From a virus, in the IMG/VR virus record IMGVR_UViG_3300032285_001938, positions 1-31,681 of that record: a DNA stretch of 31,681 nucleotides. One strand, 5' to 3'. Position numbers and translations under genes: made by a program. This document shows, one piece after another, positions 1,279 through 31,424 of the stretch; the first letter of the stretch is position 1; every line of letters starts with the position of its first letter. The notes beneath the pieces are model-generated. The model did no database searches. It saw only the letters and a program-made list of their open reading frames with translations, and was not told the DNA's origin.

Positions 1279-1523
1279 CCTGTTATGTTTGTTTCAAAGG
1301 TTGATGGCCATCCAATGCCCCTCGTATCTAACTTACTTTTATCTGCAAGTTGTGGCTCCACAATAGACTTCCATGCCAATAATTTGTATTCATGCACTCC
1401 TATGACAAACGTTTGCATATTAACGTTATAATAGGCCGTGTCGATAGACAAGTAAATTATATTCCCTGCGCTTGGTAGTGCTGAAAGTGGTAAGGCTGAT
1501 ATGGGAGCGAAACCCAACATCAT
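1275..1523 (-). CDS. Small structural-region protein, unknown
   Basis: This 82-residue product begins MMLGFAPISALPLSALPSA, an alanine/proline-rich start often seen on small head-tail or tail proteins, followed by a beta-rich middle and a DTRGIGWPSTFETN segment. It overlaps both neighbours by 4 nt (ATGA). The hydrophobic start is too proline-rich to be a convincing membrane segment. Probably a minor tail or head-tail joining component, but I cannot assign a family. Confidence 0.68.
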   Translation of the reverse strand: MMLGFAPISALPLSALPSAGNIIYLSIDTAYYNVNMQTFVIGVHEYKLLAWKSIVEPQLADKSKLDTRGIGWPSTFETNITG

Positions 1524-1951
1524 TGTATGACCCTATTTCTAATTACCAATGTTTTTTTAATCTCGAATCCTCTTGCCGTTTGTATTGCAATATCGTCCAC
1601 TGTGTTCACGAGCTTTGCGTAGCTAATTTTGTAAGGCGCATCGATACTTAATCCGTTGGTAGTCACCGTTGGAAAAAGTATGTCTGTAATTTGGCTTGCA
1701 ATTACATCAGGGATTGTTTTACTTGTAGCTGACCTTTGTACCGAAACGATTTGCAAGTTCACATCGCATTCACCTGCAAAATAGCTTTTCGTGTTTGCGC
1801 TGGTCATGTTTTGAGTCGTAACCCGAACATAAAAGAATTCGTCAGTCTCAGCTTTATCATCCATGAACGGCACATCTTTAATGCCGTATTGAACGTTGCC
1901 GTCCAATGCAGCTATGTATGATGCTCTTAATGCCGTTCCGAAATCTGTCAT
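1520..1951 (-). CDS. Tail completion protein, gp17/DUF3168-like
   Basis: The 143-residue protein follows the HK97 gp10-like gene and precedes the tail tube, the normal place for the tail terminator or completion protein. Its layout, an N-terminal helix (FGTALRASYIAALDG), a central strand-rich segment (VNLQIVSVQRS), a helix (IPDVIASQITDILF) and a final strand (RGFEIKKTLVIRNRV), is typical of the gp17/gpU fold that closes the head-proximal end of the tail tube. Assignment rests on layout and synteny. It overlaps the previous gene by 4 nt. Confidence 0.65.
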   Translation of the reverse strand: MTDFGTALRASYIAALDGNVQYGIKDVPFMDDKAETDEFFYVRVTTQNMTSANTKSYFAGECDVNLQIVSVQRSATSKTIPDVIASQITDILFPTVTTNGLSIDAPYKISYAKLVNTVDDIAIQTARGFEIKKTLVIRNRVIQ

Positions 1952-2478
1952 CGTTGTACGTTTTTCTGCCCTTGTTTTAAGGCTTCAAGGTAACCCTTTT
2001 TAATAAGTTCAATCCTGTTTTGGCCGTTTTTTGTTGTAAAGAAAAAAGGATGCGCTTTAACTCCGTTTTTCATGATGTGCCACCACACGGCCTTCCAATC
2101 ATTCACGCCTTTCTTACTTGCCCACTGCTCAATAGTTTTTTTGCTATTCACTCCACCACTTCCACGCCCCTTAAATTGTGCAGCATAACCTCCAACCCAA
2201 TTAGGAACACTTACTTTCTTTTTAGTACCAAATTCCATGTAGGCAGCGTAATCTGTCTGAGCAACGAATTCAACGCTAAGTCCTTTTTGTTCGTAGCTGA
2301 TTGAATTCTTTAACCTTGCAACATATACCGGAGCATCACGCTGCATATCTGCTTTAACTTTTTGCGCCATGTCTGTAATTTCAATCTTCATGGCAGCCTG
2401 AGAATTCTTATTAAGCGATTTATAAAAATTCTCAACTTCCTTGAATCCTTTTGTCTCTATAGTTATAAACTTGCTCAA
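1948..2478 (-). CDS. HK97 gp10-like head-tail/tail completion protein
   Basis: The 176-residue protein has the HK97 gp10 pattern: a long N-terminal helix (FYKSLNKNSQAAMKIEITDMAQKV), a DAPVYVARLKNSISYE segment, YAAYMEFGTKK, and HPFFFTTKNG near the C terminus. YxxYxEFGT and HPFF are hallmarks of this neck-region family. The start codon is a TTG whose last two bases form the TGA of the upstream gene (TTGA overlap); no in-frame ATG gives a plausible length. The coupling suggests re-initiation. Confidence 0.85.
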   Translation of the reverse strand: MSKFITIETKGFKEVENFYKSLNKNSQAAMKIEITDMAQKVKADMQRDAPVYVARLKNSISYEQKGLSVEFVAQTDYAAYMEFGTKKKVSVPNWVGGYAAQFKGRGSGGVNSKKTIEQWASKKGVNDWKAVWWHIMKNGVKAHPFFFTTKNGQNRIELIKKGYLEALKQGQKNVQR

Positions 2479-2807
2479 CTAATCCGCTGAATTTGAAAAG
2501 TATAAAAACGCCTATCTTCCAATTGCCTCCAATAATTTAATATTTCATAAGTTTTACTCTCAATTACTATAACTGTATCTTTTGTTATATGATCCTCTAA
2601 CGATGTCTTGTAGAAACAAACAAAGTCGCAAAGGTCTGTCATCATATCTTTTCCATCAATAAAAACCCTTGCTCCTCCTGTTCTTGTCATACTTCCACGC
2701 GTAGTACAAAGATTGCTGAAACTATCGAAATAGCCTCCGCTACCGTCCTCTGTCTTAGATACGGTCTTAAATGTTGCTATATGCCAAAAGTCACCTAAAC
2801 GAGCCAA
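2475..2807 (-). CDS. Head closure / head-tail adaptor protein
   Basis: The 110-residue protein resembles SPP1 gp16-like adaptors: an N-terminal strand pair with a GSGGYFDSF turn, a TRGSMTRTGG segment, and a C-terminal VIVIESKTYEILNYWRQLEDRRFYTFQIQRI hairpin, where the family usually has a 'typeIxxvxxxdxrrryleixc' ending. It plugs the connector before tail attachment. The likely start is TTG, since the first ATG lies deep inside; it overlaps the gp6-like gene by 13 nt. Confidence 0.8.
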   Translation of the reverse strand: MARLGDFWHIATFKTVSKTEDGSGGYFDSFSNLCTTRGSMTRTGGARVFIDGKDMMTDLCDFVCFYKTSLEDHITKDTVIVIESKTYEILNYWRQLEDRRFYTFQIQRIS

Positions 2808-3352
2808 GATTTCAATTTAAATTGTGATAACAACTTTCTTGCCTGTTCGCTCTGAATTCCTGCATCGTTACTTTCCCCTCTGTTATTATACCTCCAAACA
2901 ACCTCTTCAACAATGGCCTGCTTTAATGATTTAGGAACTTGTAAACCTACGGAAGGGTAACCGGCCGAATAAGTTACTTTTAAATAATCGTACATTGGAC
3001 TAACAATGTAAGGATACTTACCACCTCTTACAGTGTATTGAGTCACTGTATCACCATCCGCATCAACGATGGCAGTAATTTCATCAACAGGCGCGCCAGG
3101 TAGAACAATATTACCGCACTCATTACGAAGTTCGGCTTCGATGGACTTTTCAATGATGGAAATTTCACAGAACCTTTCTACCGCTTCCCTGCAATTGCTA
3201 ATCAACATAGCAATGAAAGTATCATCATCGTTGAAGTCGTAGTCCGTAGTCGTATCAAATCTCATGTTTAACTGAAATTTGACATCGTCTATGCTAATCG
3301 GTTCTGGGCCGGTCTCGGTAAGTACGTTATATCGCGCTTCGTTGTAGTACAT
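2795..3352 (-). CDS. gp6-like head-tail connector protein
   Basis: The 185-residue protein fits the gp6/gp15-type connector: N-terminal PISIDDVKFQLNM, an acidic stretch, then IAMLISNCREAVERFCEISI, a central beta domain (LPGAPVDEITAIVDADG and YLKVTYSAGYPS) and a C-terminal helix (LKQAIVEEVVWRYNNRGES). The order 'LK..Lr......dd..l..li..Are..E......' followed by 'y.aGy' is diagnostic for the family, which forms a ring beneath the portal. It shares one base with the next gene's end. Confidence 0.88.
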   Translation of the reverse strand: MYYNEARYNVLTETGPEPISIDDVKFQLNMRFDTTTDYDFNDDDTFIAMLISNCREAVERFCEISIIEKSIEAELRNECGNIVLPGAPVDEITAIVDADGDTVTQYTVRGGKYPYIVSPMYDYLKVTYSAGYPSVGLQVPKSLKQAIVEEVVWRYNNRGESNDAGIQSEQARKLLSQFKLKSWLV

Positions 3353-3549
3353 TACTTTATTTTCTTTTTGCGTTCAGGTTTCAGCACAGCGGCTTTACTT
3401 TCACTGGTTTCTTCGCCATATGGTTCAATTTTATTTTTGTTCAATAGTTCTTTAAACCGTTCTTCACTTATCACAATAACCTCACCAATATTATGATATT
3501 GGCGTGTAAACTTATCGATAAATGCGGAAATTATTTTAGCTTTCTTCAT
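3352..3549 (-). CDS. Small basic protein, unknown (capsid-connector interval)
   Basis: This 65-residue product has a short folded part (FTRQYHNIGEVIVISEERFKELLNKNKIEPY) and a lysine-rich tail (KPERKKKIK). Small proteins with an 'rF..Ll....iep' segment often sit between capsid and gp6-like genes and may be head decoration or maturation factors, but I cannot assign a function. It begins just downstream of the terminator at 3554-3582, so its expression depends on read-through from the capsid gene. Confidence 0.7.
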   Translation of the reverse strand: MKKAKIISAFIDKFTRQYHNIGEVIVISEERFKELLNKNKIEPYGEETSESKAAVLKPERKKKIK

Positions 3550-3553
3550 AAGT

Positions 3554-3582
3554 AAAAATTAGGGGAGAGTTACCCCTCCCCT
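3554..3582 (-). terminator. Rho-independent terminator after the major capsid gene
   Basis: On the minus strand AGGGGAG (3582-3576) pairs with CTCCCCT (3567-3561) around an 8-nt loop and is followed by AATTTTTA. It fills the 39-bp gap between the capsid gene and the next gene. A partial terminator here would make capsid mRNA more abundant than the connector and tail mRNA downstream, which must still be transcribed by read-through. Confidence 0.8.
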
Positions 3583-3588
3583 TATTAA

Positions 3589-4704
3589 TTAGGCAACGTT
3601 ACCAAGGTCTGCGAAGATGGCAGAAGCAGGGAACATCAGGTTTACTTCTTCAAGGCACTCGATACGTGCAGTAATCAAGTTCTTCTGAACGTTGTCAGAA
3701 TCTTGCTCAAAGAATTCAATCATCAAACCTTCAGCTTCAACGCGCTCGATAAAGTTGTTATCCAGTACCAGTACCTTGTCGTCAGCAATCCAAGGAGCGG
3801 CAATGATAGGTACGCCTGAGATGGTCATTGAGCCATTAGGAGCAGTTACCACGCCACCGCTTCCGCTGTAGTACCCGTTAGTATAGGTCAGCTTATTCAA
3901 GCGGCCCAACTGAGTAGGATTAACCAAAGCATAAGAGGCATCAAACAGAGCAGTGCGCTGATTAGCGATATAGTCAATCAATGCCTTCACGTCATCAGTT
4001 TCTGAAGTGGTAGTTGAGCCAGTTGCAGCACCTGAAACGGTAGTGTAGAAAGCACTGTTCTCAGCCTTGTAAAACTCTCTCAAAAGCATGGTAGGGAGAG
4101 TCTGTTGGAAGAAAGGCAAAGACTTAGCCAATTGCTTTGAAAAACGAGCAAAACCAGATACATACTTAGTAACGGTTTTAACCTCTGTCAAATCAAAATC
4201 GATTTGAGTCTTAGCGTTTCCTTCAGTTTGTGCGCTGATTGAACCTTCACCGGCTGACTCACGATAATAAGCCTGCACCAAAGTAGAACTATTAGAAGTT
4301 CTAATCAAATCACGGAAGTTAGGCATCTGAGAGGGCAGGATGGCGTTGGTGCCATAGTTTACCACGCTATCACCAGTAAGGTTATTGGAGATGGTCATGT
4401 TACCAACAGCTTTCAGTTCCATCTTGTAACGGCCACCACCACGAGAAAGGGACTTTGACAAATCAGCCCACTCTTCTTTCACTTGATCAGCAAAAACTTG
4501 TCCAAAAGACTTCTTGCTTTCAAATGTCTTAGCAATAGTATTTTGTGCAGCAATTAAAGAATCAAGTGCTTTTTGATTCTTGTCGGCTTCGTCACGCAAT
4601 ACATTAACTGAAGATTTTACTTCGCTCAAGCCAGCCTCAAACTGGGCAGCTTTTTCGTTGAAGCCTTTAACGCCTGCTTCGATGGCTTTCAATTCATTTT
4701 CCAT
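3589..4704 (-). CDS. Major capsid protein, HK97 fold
   Basis: The 371-residue protein starts with a coiled-coil delta/scaffold domain (about residues 1-65, with repeated Glu, Lys and Ala heptads), normally removed by the prohead protease encoded upstream. The remainder has the Phage_capsid pattern: a flexible arm, YYRESAGEGSISAQTEGNAK near 145-165, KYVSGFARFSKQLAKSLP, then YALVNPTQLGRLNKL and GVPIIAAPWIADDKVLVLD, typical of the A-domain and spine. It lies after the protease and before a terminator, as expected for the most highly expressed virion gene. Confidence 0.95.
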   Translation of the reverse strand: MENELKAIEAGVKGFNEKAAQFEAGLSEVKSSVNVLRDEADKNQKALDSLIAAQNTIAKTFESKKSFGQVFADQVKEEWADLSKSLSRGGGRYKMELKAVGNMTISNNLTGDSVVNYGTNAILPSQMPNFRDLIRTSNSSTLVQAYYRESAGEGSISAQTEGNAKTQIDFDLTEVKTVTKYVSGFARFSKQLAKSLPFFQQTLPTMLLREFYKAENSAFYTTVSGAATGSTTTSETDDVKALIDYIANQRTALFDASYALVNPTQLGRLNKLTYTNGYYSGSGGVVTAPNGSMTISGVPIIAAPWIADDKVLVLDNNFIERVEAEGLMIEFFEQDSDNVQKNLITARIECLEEVNLMFPASAIFADLGNVA

Positions 4705-7843: not shown

Positions 7844-9012
7844 CCTACTAATATTTTAAATTTAAATTGCCCCTGTGATGTAAAGATAGCATATCTAAGC
7901 GCATCCGATATGTGATCGTTTTCCTTGACAGGTTCGTCCAATACCTTCCCGTTCTTGTCTGTTTTCCACTTGTATGTCTTCAACTCCTTAATCAGGTTCT
8001 CCGAATTCCTGGTAATGTAAAGCGGCATTGATTTGACTTTTCGGATTCCTTCTGTTACATCCTTATGCGCTGGCTTCGCATTAAATCCTGCCCTTGTCAG
8101 CTCTTCAATTGTCTTAGGCTCCGCGGCATCGCAATAAATAACATCCGCCCTATTAATACCTATTGATTTCAATTTCTCGATTAAGTCACCTGTTGTTAGC
8201 TTCGTTTGGTAGATTATTTCCTCCGCATAGTTGGCAACTTCGTAAGTTTCAATCTTGACAAGTGCGCTCGGTACATTGTAACCAAAGTCAAGGCCATAGC
8301 AAACCGAACCTTTGGCCGGTAGTTCGTCTGTGACTTTCCAATGGGTATAAATCTGTTCCTGAGAGGTACCCCTAAGCCCAAGGCCAAACACCTGCCACAT
8401 GAGAGGATCCGCATCCCGGTAGGACTCAATAACCTCAATCTGTTTCTGCGGAAGATTGCTCAAATTGTTTCTATAAGTGCTGTGAATCTTGATAGCATCG
8501 TTACCGTCTGCAATGTGATAGCACCAGACATCAAAATCAGAAGGGTTGAGGTCTATAATTACTTTGTTCCTTGTCCTCATGTCGAGCTGATCAAACAAGG
8601 CCTTGCTAATCATGTTGGCTTCGTTGACATAAAGTAAATCGCGACCAGGTCCGCGAGCCTTATCAGGATCTTCCAAACCAACAAACTCAATGTAGGACTT
8701 ATTCTTAAAACTGTAAATTTGGTCAGTCTTATTATGATTTGCCTCAGTGTAAAGTCCCCAAATATCCATGATTTCCAAAAAGTCCCTAAGGGCTCCAGAT
8801 TTGAGATGTGGCAGGGAACGGCTTACAATTGTTATTTTTTGCTTAGGAACATTACTTGCCCAAGTTATTAGCACTTGAACTGTTGAATAAGTTTTACCTG
8901 ATCTTGTGCCGCCTTCGTTGACAATGTACCGCTTTTCAGACTCATGTAAAGCCCGATAATTAGCCGTATAAACTGGCGTAACCTTAAACCGCTTTGATAG
9001 GCTCGCAGTCAT
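7840..9012 (-). CDS. Terminase large subunit
   Basis: The 390-residue protein has the ATPase Walker A VNEGGTRSGKT (31-41), Walker B LLYVNEAN (126-133) and a DLNPSDF coupling segment near 154-160, followed by a C-terminal RNase H-like nuclease with acidic motifs CYGLDFGYN, YCDAAEPKT and NDHISDALRY. It drives DNA into proheads and cuts the concatemer. The family looks like the compact PBSX/T4-type terminases. It overlaps the small subunit gene by 29 nt and is coupled to the portal gene. Confidence 0.96.
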   Translation of the reverse strand: MTASLSKRFKVTPVYTANYRALHESEKRYIVNEGGTRSGKTYSTVQVLITWASNVPKQKITIVSRSLPHLKSGALRDFLEIMDIWGLYTEANHNKTDQIYSFKNKSYIEFVGLEDPDKARGPGRDLLYVNEANMISKALFDQLDMRTRNKVIIDLNPSDFDVWCYHIADGNDAIKIHSTYRNNLSNLPQKQIEVIESYRDADPLMWQVFGLGLRGTSQEQIYTHWKVTDELPAKGSVCYGLDFGYNVPSALVKIETYEVANYAEEIIYQTKLTTGDLIEKLKSIGINRADVIYCDAAEPKTIEELTRAGFNAKPAHKDVTEGIRKVKSMPLYITRNSENLIKELKTYKWKTDKNGKVLDEPVKENDHISDALRYAIFTSQGQFKFKILVG

Positions 9013-9358
9013 TGTCTATTTCTAATGTGATACCACCGCTCAGAGTGGTGTTGTTGTTTGAGTTAATTTGTTGCAGTGTAAGTCGCTCAAATTCCTCGTC
9101 GTTGGCCATTAGTTTGTAAGCAGCAATCTGTAGGGTAGGTTGGTCGCTTTGTATCCAACGATTGCGCATATTAGACTTATATGAAACGCGATTATCCTCT
9201 AAAGCCTGTTTTATATTGTCTAATTTATCGAACCCCCAATTGTACAATGATGATCTGTCAGGCTCCACATATTGAGAAATTTCATCAAAAAAAACAAGTT
9301 TGTTCTTCTTGATAGCCTCTAAACATTTGTTCAATATCTTATCCCTGTCGTAAGCCAT
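8984..9358 (-). CDS. Terminase small subunit
   Basis: The 124-residue protein starts with a helix-turn-helix-like segment (ILNKCLEAIKKNKLVFFDEISQYVEPDRSSLYNWG) followed by helices that should form the oligomerisation core and a C-terminal tail rich in Asn and Asp. Being directly upstream of, and overlapping, the large subunit supports DNA recognition for packaging. It is the first well-supported gene of the late operon, right behind the promoter at 9363-9395. Confidence 0.85.
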   Translation of the reverse strand: MAYDRDKILNKCLEAIKKNKLVFFDEISQYVEPDRSSLYNWGFDKLDNIKQALEDNRVSYKSNMRNRWIQSDQPTLQIAAYKLMANDEEFERLTLQQINSNNNTTLSGGITLEIDNDCEPIKAV

Positions 9359-9362
9359 ACAA

Positions 9363-9395
9363 CAAAACTACATTAAAAACAAATATTTTACCAAA
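9363..9395 (-). promoter_or_regulatory. Bacteroidota-type promoter for the late operon
   Basis: On the minus strand TTTG (9395-9392) is followed after 21 nt by TAGTTTTG (9370-9363), matching the Bacteroidota -33 TTTG / -7 TAnnTTTG consensus. The terminase small subunit ATG is only 5 nt further on, so the transcript would be nearly leaderless, or a promoter further upstream also contributes. Confidence 0.55.
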
Positions 9396-9476
9396 TTAAT
9401 TTTCTTTAACCTGTCCTTGCTGCACTGTTGGTTCTGGTTTTATAATGCCCAGCCACTTGAGTAATTTTTTAAACAT
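9396..9476 (-). CDS. Possible 26-residue basic peptide
   Basis: A short frame reads MFKKLLKWLGIIKPEP followed by a polar tail. The start resembles an amphipathic basic helix. It lies alone between the iteron region and the late promoter, and its stop overlaps the promoter's TTTG element. Real small phage genes of this kind exist, but there is no coupling or clear leader to confirm it. Confidence 0.4.
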   Translation of the reverse strand: MFKKLLKWLGIIKPEPTVQQGQVKEN

Positions 9477-9523
9477 GGTTCAAAGATAAGATAGGGTAGG
9501 GTAAGATAGCGAAAAGTTGCATG

Positions 9524-9824
9524 AAAGATTCAAAAGATTCACCAAAGTTTCACCAAAGATTCAGCATATTTTTTCATAGTACTTTGATTACCAATAAGTT
9601 ATGTTACAAAGTTTCAAAGATTCAAGATTTCATAGGAAAATATATAAAATTTCAAAGTTTCAAAGTTTCACCTATATATTATATATAATAATAATATAAA
9701 TAAATTAGTTCTATTATGTTTTTTGAATCTTTGAAACTTTCCTCTGAAACTCAAGCCCACACTACAAAGTAAAGATTCAGCAGGTGAATCTTTCGTGAAA
9801 CTTTTGAAACTTTGGTGAATCTTA
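9524..9824. repeat. Iteron array with AT-rich core; candidate replication origin
   Basis: Nine-base units AAAG(A/T)TTCA recur on the plus strand at 9524, 9533, 9544, 9555, 9608, 9616, 9654 and 9662 (variants at 9624 and 9646), often sharing a base with the next. After an AT-only stretch (about 9672-9707) the inverse complement TGAA(A/T)CTTT appears at 9724, 9732, 9785, 9796, 9805 and 9816 (last base varies), plus one direct copy at 9771. Some copies are extended by CC or GC. The array directly follows the primase-helicase gene and overlaps its last codons. Converging iterons round an AT-rich core are typical of initiator-bound origins; a multi-site operator is the alternative. Confidence 0.72.
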
Positions 9825-12107
9825 GTAGGTCTTTTCATAGCTACCCCTTGAAATTTGGCTGAATAGTTCTTTTTGGCGATTTATAAACGTTTTAACAGTA
9901 GCCTCCTTTATTCCGATACTTTCCCCTATCTCGATGGCTGTCTTCAATTTAAAGGCTTGTGGTAGTTTGCTATAAAGTAACTGCTGTGCAGGTAGCAATT
10001 TATCAACTGGGCTTTCAGGTGTGAGTATCTTCATGGCCTTTAGCATATTATCTAAAAAGTACTCAGTTAATCTAATGGATTTCTCCATCGCTCCTTGGGT
10101 AATCGTGCAATTTTCACGATAGTTGTAGTCCTCCATAACTTGGATAATAAGAGCAAACCTCAAACAATAGTTTTGATACTTGGCAATAATTCCCTTGATA
10201 TGATCAGATTGCGAGCTATCATATTTTTTATTTTTAGCATCGTGCCATGTTTTATATAGTTTGTTGGCTTGCTCATTCATGTAGTAAATATATTTCATGC
10301 CCTTACGCATCGCTAATAGGCCAAAAATGAAGTTTTTATATCCGTTTAGTATTTCATAAGGAATATTGATTTGCTGCCATTCTTGCTTATTCTGAGGCTG
10401 CGGATAAACAAATAGAAACCTATGGAAGAATCCGTTGTGTTCATTTTCGTTTGCTGAAAGTGTGGTAAGTACTCCAGGTTGAACACCTCCGACGATTGTA
10501 CAAAAAGGCTCATCGACTTTATCAATACCGCGCGATACCCTTTGTACAAGTAATGGCTCACCACTCCAAAGGGATAGCCACTTTTCAAGCTCATCGTTTG
10601 TATCGCTGTATTTATTCATTTTCTTAATAAAACCAATAAGCTCATCATTCAGAAGGCAACAACCATACTCATTCACTGCAAGAATCTTTGAAATCATCTC
10701 GATGGTACTGTCTCCAATAATTACCTGATAGTATGGCGGTGCTTCTGGTTCAGGTTCTGATTTATTTTTACTTGCTTTATAGTCTTGCAGTTCCTCTTTG
10801 TATCGTTCGAGTTCCAATTTATAATGCTTGTAACTTTCAGCATCATATTCCTGAAACGGATTGAATGCCTTATTTAGTGCAGGTGTTTTAGATGCCCCAG
10901 GAGGTGCAACAATGGCCATGTATAAAATAGGCTTAACGATGTATCCCTGCATTGCCTCCATCGTGCAAGTATTCCCTATGGCCGTAGAAACTGCTGCCAA
11001 AATACCACCGGCCAAATATTCATGCTGTATCACTTGTTTGCTAATAAATAATTGCAAAGCACTTGGGAAGATATCAAAAGGGAATTTTGAGCGGTCTTGT
11101 TTTGGTTGTTCTTGTTCAATCGGTTTGGTTATTTCAATATCGTTATGCTCACACAGAAATTTAATTGTTTCAATTGTAGTTATCCAATCTTGTTTTGATT
11201 TGTAATAAATGAATCTTGTGGGAGTAAGTATCCAGCTGTGATCGTCCGAACTTATACGACTGTGAAAATTTGGGAAGTCAGTAAAACTTCCACTCATAAT
11301 TAGTAGCTTTTTTACTTTACCAAAATAAACCTTTGCGGAATAATCAGCAAGTGAACCCTTGCGTAAATAGGCTGCATATTTTTTACGATTATATCTTGGG
11401 TTTTTTATAATATACAAATCGATGCTTTCAAGCAATTCATTAAATAGATCATCTGTACATGATAAATCAAATAACAGTGCAAGCTCTTCGTATTCTTTTG
11501 GATATTCAATTATAATCGAATCCCTATTTAATTCAATATCATCGTATTCATTAAAGTAAATACACGAAGCACAAAGCATATCGAACTCATCTTGAGTCAG
11601 TTCTTCGATATCTGTAAGTTCGTTATGTATTAATTCGTAACCTGGCGTTGGATAGCAAAAAGACAATAGGCCACCTGTATAGATGCTTATTACCTCTCTG
11701 TTTTCACTGCTCTTTGCAAGTGGTTTTTTATGTTCAACTTTGCTAAACTTAGAGTAAATATGATAACCTCCGTTCCTTGTTTTCTCTATACAAACTTTCC
11801 TTAGTACATCTTCGTTTGTACTTTTAACTATATTTAAGAACTGATTGAATAGTTCCTTATTTTCAGTATTCTTTAAATCAAAATCAAACATGAAATAGGG
11901 CGGCTTCATCCTTAATGCAAGGCCATTCATCTTATTCAAGTCCTGCATCCATCGGCTCACATCATTAATAGAATGATATTCTCCTTTATCTTCAATATCT
12001 GTTTTGTATTCAGGGAATTTCTCTACGTTCTTTTTATTTATATCCCAATCAACAGGCACAGGGTAAAGCCCCATTTCAAAAAGTTCTGATAGTACTTTGA
12101 TGTCCAT
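9822..12107 (-). CDS. Primase-polymerase/helicase replication protein (DUF3987-type)
   Basis: This 761-residue protein has an N-terminal prim-pol-like domain with the metal-binding MFDFDL motif (73-78) and KTRNGGYHIYSK (109-120). A central DUF3987-type helicase domain begins near FPSALQLFISKQVIQHEYLAGG (347-368) and has Walker A APPGASKT (401-408) and an LLNDEL Walker B-like motif. The C terminus (AIEIGESIGIKEATVKTFINRQKELF) looks like a winged helix-turn-helix. It probably primes and unwinds phage DNA and may bind the adjacent iterons. It is the last gene of the early operon and follows a structured leader. No phage DNA polymerase is visible, so elongation likely uses the host enzyme. Confidence 0.88.
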   Translation of the reverse strand: MDIKVLSELFEMGLYPVPVDWDINKKNVEKFPEYKTDIEDKGEYHSINDVSRWMQDLNKMNGLALRMKPPYFMFDFDLKNTENKELFNQFLNIVKSTNEDVLRKVCIEKTRNGGYHIYSKFSKVEHKKPLAKSSENREVISIYTGGLLSFCYPTPGYELIHNELTDIEELTQDEFDMLCASCIYFNEYDDIELNRDSIIIEYPKEYEELALLFDLSCTDDLFNELLESIDLYIIKNPRYNRKKYAAYLRKGSLADYSAKVYFGKVKKLLIMSGSFTDFPNFHSRISSDDHSWILTPTRFIYYKSKQDWITTIETIKFLCEHNDIEITKPIEQEQPKQDRSKFPFDIFPSALQLFISKQVIQHEYLAGGILAAVSTAIGNTCTMEAMQGYIVKPILYMAIVAPPGASKTPALNKAFNPFQEYDAESYKHYKLELERYKEELQDYKASKNKSEPEPEAPPYYQVIIGDSTIEMISKILAVNEYGCCLLNDELIGFIKKMNKYSDTNDELEKWLSLWSGEPLLVQRVSRGIDKVDEPFCTIVGGVQPGVLTTLSANENEHNGFFHRFLFVYPQPQNKQEWQQINIPYEILNGYKNFIFGLLAMRKGMKYIYYMNEQANKLYKTWHDAKNKKYDSSQSDHIKGIIAKYQNYCLRFALIIQVMEDYNYRENCTITQGAMEKSIRLTEYFLDNMLKAMKILTPESPVDKLLPAQQLLYSKLPQAFKLKTAIEIGESIGIKEATVKTFINRQKELFSQISRGSYEKTY

Positions 12108-12236: not shown

Positions 12237-14387
12237 TTAAAACAAGGTAGTTTGTTTTTTAGTTTCAACTATTGCTGCAAGATTCTTTTTTGCTTGGTCA
12301 AAATAAGATTCTTTAAGTTCAAATCCAATTCCTTTTCGGTTCATCTTTACAGCTTGAAATACCTCTGATCCAATACCCATAAATGGAGTGAGTACCGTGT
12401 CATTTTCGTTACTATACAAATGTATTGCTTTTTCAATTGTTGGAAGTTGCAAAGGACAAATATGCTTTTCATCGTTTTCATCCCTGCCATTCCTATATCC
12501 TTGCAAAGTATCACCGTAATCAATATCCATCCAAACAGGGGAAGCATATTTTTGCCATGTGTCTACATTTATTGTGCATTTCACTGGATCAGTTCTATCG
12601 CCATCTTTTCTAAATATTAATAGGTAGTCCGGTATTCCCACTCTGGACATCGTGCTGTCTTTTTTTACTTGTTTATGTAAAAGCCCAAGTGCTTTTGTTC
12701 TTTGCATTTCTACAACCGGATCTTTCCAAATTGTAACCCTTGAATGATAAATAAAACCAGCACTTTCGAATGCTTTTAAAATTAACCCACTAAAATCACG
12801 CAATCCAATAAAACCTTCTTTTCCTTTTTGTATGGGTAAGTCCATGCAATGTACTGCAACATTTCGGCCTTGTTTTATAACTCTGTACAATTCTTTAATA
12901 AGGAAATTAAATTGAGTTAGGAATTCATTGTAATCTTTGCTGTTACCCATATCTTCCAAATGTGATGAATAAGTATAAAGATCAGCGAAAGGAGGTGAAA
13001 AAATAGAGAAGCCAACAGTTTCATCTTGAACATCTTTAATCAACTGGATACAATCACCACGCTTTATATTGTAATATTCATTATCGACTTCATCAGTATT
13101 GTTAGTTGCTGATTTCAAAATAGTATTATTTAAATTCTGATTTACAGCTTTGCTCATTTCATCTTGCATAAGTTCAAATTGTTTTTGTTTGTTATCTATG
13201 CTTTGTTTTACGTTGGACATGGTATCGGTAGTAATCAAATAAATATTAACAGCTTGCTTTTGTCCAAATCTGTATGACCTTCTTATGGCCTGGTACAATC
13301 CCTCGAAACTGAAGTCTAAACTTGCAAATATTTGATTATTGCAATTTTGATAGTTAAGGCCAAATGAAGCTATTTTAGTTTTAGTAATCAATACCCTAAA
13401 TTGATTATTTGCGAATCCAAGCAGCATCTTTTCTTTGTATTCATTACTATCTGATCCTTTTACTTCAATTGCCTCAGGGATTAGTTTTTTTAATAACTCA
13501 CCTTCTTCATTTTGCTTTATCCATATAATAAAGTTATCGGTTGAGTTATTTACAATTTTCGCAACTTCATCGAGTCGCTCAATTTTAGTAAATCGAAGCT
13601 CTTGATTAAAGTTAGTCGCTGAAATTATAGCATCGTTGAATAAGAGGCCGTTATCTCGTTTTTTGGTTATTATTTGTTTTTCAATAAGATTCAATGATGG
13701 CAAATCGTAATCTTGCATCTGAAATCCAATATCGTTAGGCTTATTTAACATGATTGACCAGGTGCCAACAAATTGATAAAATAATTTTACAGCATGTCCT
13801 TTTAATCTCCACTTTGAGGTCTCACCGCCATCATGGACAAAATACATTGCAAGCATTTCATTGCGACCCATGACGTCTAAGAACTCGGCATGATTGCCAA
13901 GCTCCATAGGATCGTTAGGGGATGGAGTGGCTGTACAAGCTAATTTGTAAGGAGTCAATTTAAATAAGTCTATTATCTTCTTTTTAGTCTCACCTTCAAA
14001 ATTTTTCAATATAGAAGATTCATCCAAAACAATCCCTGAGTACTTTTGGCTTTCTATGTTATCTAACTGCTCATAATTGTTTATTTCTATGCCATCAATT
14101 GGAATCTTAAATTTAATAGCCTCGTTAATTGTTTGTCCTTTTACTGCTAAAGGTGCTAAAATCAAAATAGTCTTATTTGTATGCTTGTAAACTTGATGCG
14201 CCCATTCAAGTTGCATCAAAGTTTTCCCAAGTCCGCAATCAGCAAATATTGCATACTTTCCAGCCTTTAAGGCTCTTTTTACAATAAACTTTTGAAATTC
14301 AAATAAGTTAGGATTCAACTCACCGACATCGAATCCTGAATAAACATGAGCTTTCCGCTTACTTTCCAAAAATTGATTATAGTCCAT
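12237..14387 (-). CDS. SNF2/DEAD-type helicase fused to a DNA methyltransferase
   Basis: The chosen start MDYNQFLESK gives 716 residues; upstream codons would run through the leader's terminator hairpin. Residues 30-400 are a superfamily 2 helicase: CGLGKT (51-56), DESS (122-125), TATPSPND (152-159) and a motif VI-like QAIRRSYRFGQKQ (366-378). Residues 438-716 are a beta-type amino-methyltransferase with motif IV FSPPF (463-467) and, later in the chain, motif I TPFMGIGSE (667-675), the order found in N6-adenine or N4-cytosine enzymes. It may remodel and methylate phage DNA, protecting it from restriction or marking it for replication. The sequence specificity cannot be told. Confidence 0.88.
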   Translation of the reverse strand: MDYNQFLESKRKAHVYSGFDVGELNPNLFEFQKFIVKRALKAGKYAIFADCGLGKTLMQLEWAHQVYKHTNKTILILAPLAVKGQTINEAIKFKIPIDGIEINNYEQLDNIESQKYSGIVLDESSILKNFEGETKKKIIDLFKLTPYKLACTATPSPNDPMELGNHAEFLDVMGRNEMLAMYFVHDGGETSKWRLKGHAVKLFYQFVGTWSIMLNKPNDIGFQMQDYDLPSLNLIEKQIITKKRDNGLLFNDAIISATNFNQELRFTKIERLDEVAKIVNNSTDNFIIWIKQNEEGELLKKLIPEAIEVKGSDSNEYKEKMLLGFANNQFRVLITKTKIASFGLNYQNCNNQIFASLDFSFEGLYQAIRRSYRFGQKQAVNIYLITTDTMSNVKQSIDNKQKQFELMQDEMSKAVNQNLNNTILKSATNNTDEVDNEYYNIKRGDCIQLIKDVQDETVGFSIFSPPFADLYTYSSHLEDMGNSKDYNEFLTQFNFLIKELYRVIKQGRNVAVHCMDLPIQKGKEGFIGLRDFSGLILKAFESAGFIYHSRVTIWKDPVVEMQRTKALGLLHKQVKKDSTMSRVGIPDYLLIFRKDGDRTDPVKCTINVDTWQKYASPVWMDIDYGDTLQGYRNGRDENDEKHICPLQLPTIEKAIHLYSNENDTVLTPFMGIGSEVFQAVKMNRKGIGFELKESYFDQAKKNLAAIVETKKQTTLF

Positions 14388-14392
14388 AAAAT

Positions 14393-14479
14393 AAAAAATC
14401 CCCACCAGATGCGAGCTGATGGGGTTATTGCATGATGAATGCAAATAAAGTGCAACGGCTCGCATTCGTTGCTCTTTAT
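14393..14479 (-). promoter_or_regulatory. Structured leader B: kissing-loop/terminator element before the helicase-methyltransferase
   Basis: Minus strand. Hairpin 1 (14479-14445) has stem ATAAAG-A-GCAACG / CGTTGC-A-CTTTAT, twelve pairs with one A-A mismatch, and loop AATGCGAGC. Hairpin 2, TTGCAT-TCATC-ATGCAA (14444-14428), abuts it. After 3 nt, hairpin 3 (14424-14400) has 9-bp stem CCCCATCAG/CTGGTGGGG with one T-G pair and loop CTCGCAT, then six T (14398-14393). Loop 3 is the exact complement of ATGCGAG in loop 1 (8 nt counting the adjoining G-C). The start codon lies 5 nt after the T-run. The architecture matches leader A although the stem sequences differ. Confidence 0.75.
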
Positions 14480-29697: not shown

Positions 29698-31424
29698 TAT
29701 ACAAATCTACTCCTCCGCGCGCTTGTTCGTTGCTGTTGTAAGTAAATATTTTCACCGCTCAAAATACCAGTTACAAAGATGTTTTTATTTCCGCCAACGA
29801 TGTTATCCAATTTAGATAATGGTATAACCGCCTCAGGACCTGCTTCACCGATTAAAGCGCGTGTTGGGCCGGTTACAATGCCACCGTCTGCGAATTTGAA
29901 GCCAGCAAGTTGTCCAAAAATACCGCTGAAATTTTTAGCGAATGAGGCGCCACCTGCGGCAGAACCTGGGAAAGCAACTGAAATAATAGCCGCAAATATT
30001 GCAGCTGTAACAGCGGCTGCAATTAATTTCTTTATTACACCTGCAATCGCTTGCCCAAAAGCTGACAAAGCATTTTTAGAACCTGAAAGTATATCTTCAA
30101 ATAAGTTAGTAAAAGCTGGGCTTAATGTATTGATTAATAAATCTGAATATTGTTTGAGTTTTTCTAAATTGAATAATTCCTTACCACTTTCAGCATTTTT
30201 TTGCAATTCTTTTCCAATATTAGCAATTGAATTTTTAGTATCAGCAAAAACATCTCTATTTGCAGCTAACCTATTGGTATATTCATCTAAAACATTTTGA
30301 GTAGCAAATGGGTCAATAAGCGAATTTCTCATTGCCTGCCCCATCTCAGTTAATGCAACTGTAGTGGCTTTAACTGTTTTTAGAATAAGAATACGACCTT
30401 CTGGCTTGTCCTCCTTATTTTTATCCTTGCTTTGTACTTTAAATTTTAAAGTTTCATCAACTGCTTTTCCCAGTTCAGTGCTTAGTTGATTATACCCATT
30501 TTGAAGGTCTGAAACAGATTTAATTTGTCCATCTATTTCACTTTTAACATTACCTAAATTATTTTGAAGTGCTTCAAGTTTCCCTCCAAATGCATTAGAA
30601 GTAATACCTGTTCCACTTGCACCAACTACGTTAAGTTTAGATTGAGACTTTTCAACATCTGCTATTTGTTTTTGATAACTATCATATAATAACAGATTCT
30701 TTTCAAGTGCTGCTCTTTGCTTAGTTAACTCAATTGCTGTTTTTCCTATTTCTTCTTTAAACCCTTTTACAACAGCTTCAGCAATCAATGATTTTGTTAA
30801 TTCATCAACCGCCTTTGTTAAACCAATAACCTCTCCTTTTTCAATCTTTAAATCTTTGAAATAGGTTTCATTAATTTTCTTAAGCCTAGTTAGAGCATTA
30901 ACCCTTTGTTCGTAAGGTAAATTTGAGTTATTAACTGCTTTAGCAAGTGCAGTTATTTCTTCAATTTGTGATTGAGTGGAAGATTGAGCATTGAGATAAA
31001 TTTCATTTATCTTCTTTTGCGTTTCAGCTTGTTGGTTAGTCTTACTTAATAGTGCATCAATTGCATTTCCTAAACTCCCATACTTCTGTATTGCAGTTGT
31101 AACAAGCGCAGAAACCACACTGAAACCCACCGCAATACCGGCCGGCCCTGCAAGCGATGAGCCTAAAGCCTTTAAGGCACCACCTACGGAACCAGTCTCT
31201 TTTTGCAGCTGCCCAAACGAACTTAACAGCGGATCTAAGTTATTCTGAATTGCAATAAATCCAAAGGGAGCATCCGAAGCTACACGTGATAGATTGGTGA
31301 GGGCATATTGAGCTTTGCCACTCGCTTGATTAATCTGTGTAAGAGATTTCACTGCGGAATTCGTAGCCTTATCAAGGCCTGAGGCATCCGCGTTAATAAT
31401 TAATTTTATTTCATTATCAGCCAT
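29697..31424 (-). CDS. Tape measure protein
   Basis: The 575-residue protein starts MADNEIKLIINADASGLDKATNSAVKSLT, the usual tape measure opening, then long helices, a first hydrophobic stretch (LAGPAGIAVGFSVVSALVTTAI), charged coiled coils and a second hydrophobic region near the C terminus (IAGVIKKLIAAAVTAAIFAAIISVA). It ends with GGIVTGPTRALIGEAGPEAVIPLSKLD, a very common tape measure ending. It sets tail length; from the common rule of about 0.15 nm per residue the tail should be some 85 nm long. It overlaps the chaperone extension by 8 nt. Confidence 0.93.
   Translation of the reverse strand: MADNEIKLIINADASGLDKATNSAVKSLTQINQASGKAQYALTNLSRVASDAPFGFIAIQNNLDPLLSSFGQLQKETGSVGGALKALGSSLAGPAGIAVGFSVVSALVTTAIQKYGSLGNAIDALLSKTNQQAETQKKINEIYLNAQSSTQSQIEEITALAKAVNNSNLPYEQRVNALTRLKKINETYFKDLKIEKGEVIGLTKAVDELTKSLIAEAVVKGFKEEIGKTAIELTKQRAALEKNLLLYDSYQKQIADVEKSQSKLNVVGASGTGITSNAFGGKLEALQNNLGNVKSEIDGQIKSVSDLQNGYNQLSTELGKAVDETLKFKVQSKDKNKEDKPEGRILILKTVKATTVALTEMGQAMRNSLIDPFATQNVLDEYTNRLAANRDVFADTKNSIANIGKELQKNAESGKELFNLEKLKQYSDLLINTLSPAFTNLFEDILSGSKNALSAFGQAIAGVIKKLIAAAVTAAIFAAIISVAFPGSAAGGASFAKNFSGIFGQLAGFKFADGGIVTGPTRALIGEAGPEAVIPLSKLDNIVGGNKNIFVTGILSGENIYLQQQRTSARRSRFV

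Follow-up and report, generated by a model that had tools for sequence, protein, structure and literature searches.

In SaPI elements the origin is found immediately downstream of rep, and it is the C-terminal domain of Rep that reads it; an arrangement of Rep as two hexamers has been proposed (PMC7581432). In the RepA/iteron modules of PLE, the DNA-binding domains of the initiators swap together with the origin iterons, and a phage nuclease aimed at the iterons may drive this change (PMC8263062). Kazlauskas et al. predicted a helicase role for DUF3987 and, for the winged helix at the C terminus of related proteins, a role in recognising origins (PMC5862659). Pfam still lists DUF3987 under unknown function.

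The stretch of DNA analysed here (the window), a virus record 31,681 bases long, has genes for the head, packaging and tail of a phage; its larger ORFs are on the minus strand. Between a 761-aa DUF3987 gene and a 124-aa ORF lies an array of short repeats running in two directions. The array is very probably the replication origin of the phage, read by the initiator encoded alongside it. An earlier note had proposed a probable replication origin at this site, and two lines of evidence now support that proposal: the array follows the gene in relatives, and its units covary with the winged helix at the C terminus of the encoded protein.

The repeat array and its surroundings

Fourteen exact AAAG(A/T)TTCA units are found at 9524-9813, whereas 1000 dinucleotide shuffles have 0.067 on average and never more than 2. 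Elsewhere in the 31.7-kb window there is a single further exact unit, at 30448. With one-mismatch units included, the whole array occupies 9513-9824. The features of the region are listed below, with units given by their start positions.

8984-9358: 124-aa ORF just before the large terminase; putative small terminase, from its position
9396-9476, minus strand: candidate 26-aa ORF (MFKKLLKWLGIIKPEPTVQQGQVKEN) in the gap between the array and the putative small terminase, kept with changes in the sister locus L004
9513-9563, plus strand: outer block far from the gene; one-mismatch unit 9513 (AAAGTTGCA) and exact units 9524, 9533, 9544 and 9555, with spacings of 9 and 11 bp
9577-9589, minus strand: weak IHF-like site AATCAAAGTACTA, differing from WATCAANNNNTTR at one position, in the gap that separates the outer from the inner block
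9608-9624, plus strand: inner unit pair; exact units 9608 and 9616, 8-bp step
9646-9670, plus strand: core-proximal units; one-mismatch unit 9646 (AAAATTTCA) and exact units 9654 and 9662, 8-bp step
9673-9707, no strand: 35-bp core made up of A and T only; candidate DNA unwinding element
9724-9740, minus strand: opposing unit pair; exact units 9724 and 9732, 8-bp step
9771-9779, plus strand: single counter-oriented unit; relatives often keep one near the gene-side outer block
9785-9824, minus strand: gene-side outer block; exact units 9785, 9796 and 9805 and one-mismatch unit 9816 (TAAGATTCA), the last over the stop codon
9822-12107, minus strand: primase-helicase gene, 761 aa, with PrimPol, DUF3987 helicase and winged helix; proposed initiator
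9825-10010, minus strand: C-terminal winged helix, residues about 700-761, with recognition helix 735-744 (K739, T740) and wing R754; covaries with the units

Before the core, ten plus-strand units run in one direction, two of them with one mismatch, and six minus-strand units follow after it. The A/T-only run of exactly 35 bases between them is the longest in the window. The layout described in the earlier note, ten units one way, a 35-base A/T core and six opposed units, thus stands apart from one omission, the plus-strand unit at 9771 inside the right-hand block. The array does touch the primase-helicase gene as described there, the final one-mismatch unit running into the stop codon at 9822-9824. 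The A and T classes of unit, by contrast with what the note had reported, show no strict alternation. In the sister locus L004 one T-class unit has become A. From these two observations the classes look interchangeable.

No DnaA boxes (TTWTNCACA) are present anywhere in the window, and an Rfam search of 9300-9900 gives no match. The IHF-like site, having one mismatch, is not significant in the window alone. The GC-skew profile, proposed earlier as a check on the origin, has no sign change at the array; the record is linear and essentially all its genes lie on one strand. Just beyond the array a TATCTTTG element precedes the candidate 26-aa ORF; we take it to resemble a Bacteroidetes -7 box. 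The ORF itself (9396-9476) is outside the origin model. Upstream of the primase-helicase gene, a 742-aa protein (12237-14465, minus strand) joins an SNF2-like helicase and an N6/N4 DNA methyltransferase in one chain, and this fusion is kept in the related locus L009 at 70% identity.

Predicted fold of the primase-helicase

In Pfam the 761-aa protein matches DUF3987 (PF13148) with 192 bits against a cut-off of 27 (E 2.1e-56). This is the sole Pfam match, with no DUF927 or D5-type helicase and, for the full-length protein, no MCM family. A sequence search of known structures with the full protein likewise finds no relative. The AlphaFold2 model has a mean pLDDT of 88. A Foldseek search with this predicted model identifies an N-terminal PrimPol fold like the prim-pol of pRN1 ORF904 (1rni; E 1.6e-5). 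The helicase domain of the model superimposes on the MCM AAA+ fold with Z 17.6 over 270 residues at 3.5 A, and the best 50 chains listed for it are all from MCM entries. The model suggests an MCM fold for the DUF3987 helicase; we do not claim membership by sequence. In the literature we found no paper linking DUF3987 to MCM by structure.

The C-terminal elements are predicted as helices at 706-714, 721-730 and 735-744 and strands at 718-720, 749-753 and 756-759. When this small domain is compared alone, its best matches are winged helices with Z about 8 (archaeal MCM winged helix, BlaI, Fur). Predicted elements and structure matches agree with the earlier suggestion that the C terminus looks like a winged helix, although the matches to the modelled domain point to no particular family. 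In the model, residues 739 and 740 are within the recognition helix and residue 754 is within the wing.

Related arrays and covariation with the winged helix

A search of the phage collection for DNA relatives of the array region found none. The first genome scan, with the single protein as query, gave no match, and for that collection alignment A1 proved too divergent. Two IMG/VR loci whose proteins are 97-100% identical have the same array, and a pattern scan of IMG/VR for three clustered units recovered L009 (47% identical protein) and L037 (30%), both with a two-way array round an A/T core directly 3' of the gene. Alignment-based scans extended the set to about 100 loci, from IMG/VR plus one Pedobacter cryotolerans genome carrying a prophage (L153), which points to Bacteroidota as the host phylum. 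Many of the loci are close kin, and 54 are non-redundant by C terminus. A 7-mer count took in the 93 loci with enough flank, and in 71 of these the 420 bp 3' of the stop codon are the richest in one 7-mer among all 420-bp windows of the locus. Most of the exceptions have their two-way array further on, past an inserted gene where this was checked (L098/L099, L125/L126, L129, L142/L143/L148, L061, L064, L069 and L070). In L098 (4054-4617), L125 and L142, extra coding sequence in either orientation separates the primase-helicase stop codon from the array. L053 has nine units if both variants are counted. No clear array was found near the distant DUF3987 genes L075, L079 and L083, or near L090. 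Relatives still show the array behind the gene at identities as low as about 27-30%. We thus looked for relatives with the same primase and no repeats in this gap, a pattern named in the earlier note as telling against an origin, and with 71 of 93 loci richest there the origin reading was not refuted.

The geometry is broadly kept in the closer clade: an outer block, often a counter-oriented unit, an inner pair, the A/T core, an inner pair and an outer block, with 8-bp steps inside the unit pairs. In most relatives the AT-richest 60 bp of the array region are flanked by the inner opposed units. The units themselves differ from locus to locus, reading AAAGWTTCA in the window, AAAGTWACA in L053, L084 and L098, AGTTRTGCA-type in L055, L056 and L058, ASTATAACA in L092 and L105, AAATGTCCA in L061 and L069, and AAATTCTCA in L151. 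The arrays of clade A contain 15 IHF-like WATCAANNNNTTR sites where 1.0 is expected, and 10 copies of TGATAATCA where 0.1 is expected. In clade A arrays such as those of L053, L058 and L059 the latter element is palindromic and is followed by AGTTA-like sequence; it is possibly a site for a host IHF/HU-type protein.

Some look-alike arrays were set aside. L011, L025 and L038 have 13-40 same-direction AAAGATTC-type units, which are unrelated, and the ORFs around the L011 and L025 arrays show no primase-helicase. These units follow 8- and 12-bp steps (L011:2330-2774, L025:203-647, L038:93-213) in an unrelated contig family. A two-way repeat in L032 comes with no match to the primase-helicase. 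In L007 a two-way AAAGTTTCC array (10701-10953) lies shortly past the 3' end of another phage gene, which is helicase-like but different and encodes an HTH-like C-terminal tail; here the design may have arisen by convergence.

The gene on the far side of the array varies among relatives: it encodes a PD-(D/E)XK-like nuclease in L053, an SNF2-like helicase in L106 and a small, weakly HTH-like protein in L087, while in L085, L109, L112 and L118 the terminase comes only after one to several genes. In L009 the large terminase ORF (1360-3675, minus strand) has an apparent intein inside it, which starts CFVGEIMITTMTGG and ends VHNC. In mobile elements of Bacteroides, the DUF3987 and DUF6371 genes are separated by short converging repeats, and no terminase adjoins these. 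Opposed TTGCACTT-type repeats also follow the DUF3987 gene of pSR11, a circular 11.5-kb plasmid of Salinibacter ruber in whose incomplete annotation this gene is the sole named replication gene. The changing neighbours and the repeats in mobile elements and pSR11 argue for an origin and against a late-operon operator or a packaging site, and both of these were down-weighted because the neighbours change. As an operator, the array would be bound by the primase-helicase to control the late operon from the small terminase onward, switching the phage from replication to late transcription. In the window the array does lie upstream of the putative small terminase, which fits this reading, as does the TATCTTTG element just past the array with its resemblance to a Bacteroidetes -7 box. 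But the far-side gene is not constant, the Bacteroides elements have no terminase beside the array, and such an operator would have no need for converging blocks round an A/T core. Lying 3' of the primase-helicase gene, the array also cannot be the operator of that gene's own promoter. We consider an operator unlikely, and the switch between replication and late transcription raised in the earlier note is unsupported.

The sequence of the units goes with individual residues of the protein. Unit matrices were aligned automatically and then compared with every column of the protein alignment, in a main set of 28 loci (723 columns) and a core set of 22 loci (646 columns). For unit base 7, the best predictor among the 28 loci is residue 740, with a mutual information of 1.52 of 1.65 bits (rank 1 of 723), and in the 22-locus core this residue explains all of the entropy, 1.18 of 1.18 bits (rank 1 of 646). 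Residue 739 is the best predictor of base 3, at rank 1 in both sets, and wing residue 754 ranks 1 of 723 for base 4, and 4 of 646 in the core. Bases 5 and 6 have no leading recognition-helix or wing partner (28 loci, 723 columns). At residue 740 Thr pairs with T, Val, Leu, Met or Ala with A, Ser with G and Arg with C, the last with one exception; at residue 739 Lys pairs with A and Arg with T or C. Exceptions to the pairing are L070 in the main set and L186 at base 3. In a tree built from the helicase region, with the winged helix left out, Thr-T and Ser-G each occur on three separate branches, so they are not explained by shared descent alone. When helicase-core distance is removed in a partial Mantel test, the four windows over residues 735-759 come out on top of 149 (best r 0.42, 0/2000 permutations). 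In a second, more distant clade residue 740 fixes the base by another rule, Asn-T, Asp-G and Ser/Thr/Ile-A; here the rank of residue 740, 6 of 539, is confounded by relatedness, and the base was read by eye.

The rules were tested on loci fetched later, L186, L187 and L230. L187 (Lys-Ser), which is related to L102, has the unit AAAGTTGCA, with both positions as expected. In L186 (Lys-Met) base 7 is as expected and base 3 is not. The strongest case is the pair L229 and L230, whose proteins are 95.2% identical; their winged helices differ at four residues, one of them at the position of residue 740, where L229 has Asn and L230 has Asp. All nine units of L229 read TTCTCA and all ten of L230 read TTCGCA, the switch expected from Asn-T and Asp-G. 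Together, covariation and predicted fold strongly support the C-terminal winged helix as reader of the units, and they suggest that initiator and origin evolve together like lock and key across dozens of related phages.

This covariation also bears on a structured origin, in which the inverted blocks would act as a hairpin or cruciform, like the stem-loop of pRN1, and not as double-stranded protein sites. The pRN1 stem-loop origin does lie downstream of a similar gene (PMC4234260), and the array strand folds far better than shuffles (z -6.9). Opposed units give such folding automatically, however, and pure structure does not require units tied to recognition-helix residues, which makes this reading very unlikely. 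Scarcely credible is a packaging site (pac) bound by the small terminase: the repeats adjoin the terminase genes in the window and are near them in some relatives, but among relatives the array goes along with the primase-helicase rather than the terminase, and its unit sequence covaries with the primase-helicase winged helix.

Origin model and comparison with known systems

For the array as an origin, we infer unit binding, core melting and fork direction in four steps. Judging from covariation and predicted fold, the C-terminal winged helix would bind each 9-bp unit, with K739, T740 and wing R754 setting the sequence. The converging blocks flanking the A/T core would then gather many copies of the protein, probably aided by a host bending protein at the IHF-like site, as suggested by the enrichment of this motif in relatives. 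Rings of the MCM-fold DUF3987 helicase may load on either side of the A/T core, in opposite orientations, and open it, a step modelled on the symmetry of the array, on SaPI Rep as two hexamers and on MCM. Finally, the fused PrimPol domain would prime both strands, and two forks would depart in opposite directions.

The evidence links DUF3987 with an MCM fold, with a residue-to-base covariation and, in dozens of phages, with a candidate origin. In uncultured phages, the gene alone could then be enough to predict the origin. We give an even chance to a wider reading, in which the DUF3987 proteins of Bacteroidota phages and mobile elements would be self-contained replicases, with two opposed MCM-fold hexamers loaded by an iteron-reading winged helix. 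Two or three residues would set the specificity by a readable amino-acid-to-base rule, and initiator and array would shift together in small steps while the geometry is kept. If the origin model is true, the C-terminal domain should bind AAAGATTCA and not the L056-type ACTTATGCA. The pair offers a clean natural system in which one can ask how a DNA-binding protein changes in concert with its site, present in some 14 copies, and whether origin-targeting defence drives that change, as suggested for PLE iterons (PMC8263062).

As in the SaPI and SCCmec Rep-type systems, the initiator helicase gene is followed directly downstream by a short-repeat origin, here a candidate origin from its position and repeats. 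In those systems the C-terminal domain of the helicase recognises the repeats (PMC7581432), and the strong covariation of units and winged helix suggests a similar role here. The helicases themselves differ: SaPIbov1 Rep and Cch are DUF927 helicases and Cch2 and SaPI5 Rep are D5-like, whereas the window protein has a DUF3987 helicase of predicted MCM fold. No sequence link from it to the SaPI/SCCmec helicases was found with the tools used. P4 has a second, distant array (crr). Unlike P4, the window has no second array, its sole further exact unit being the one at 30448, in a record that may be incomplete. The P4 alpha protein combines in one polypeptide a primase, a helicase and a winged helix that binds short repeats of the origin, the design proposed here too, but its primase is of the Toprim type (PMC4234260) whereas the window protein has a PrimPol fold. 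pRN1 ORF904 shares the PrimPol fold, a helicase, a C-terminal winged helix and an origin downstream of the gene, but has an SF3 helicase and a 100-nt stem-loop origin without iterons (PMC4234260), in place of an iteron array round an A/T core. PLE modules have a RepA_N initiator and change by whole-module swaps, whereas here a primase-helicase changes residue by residue. What is new in the present system is the type of helicase, the fixed geometry with changing units, and the covariation at the level of single residues.
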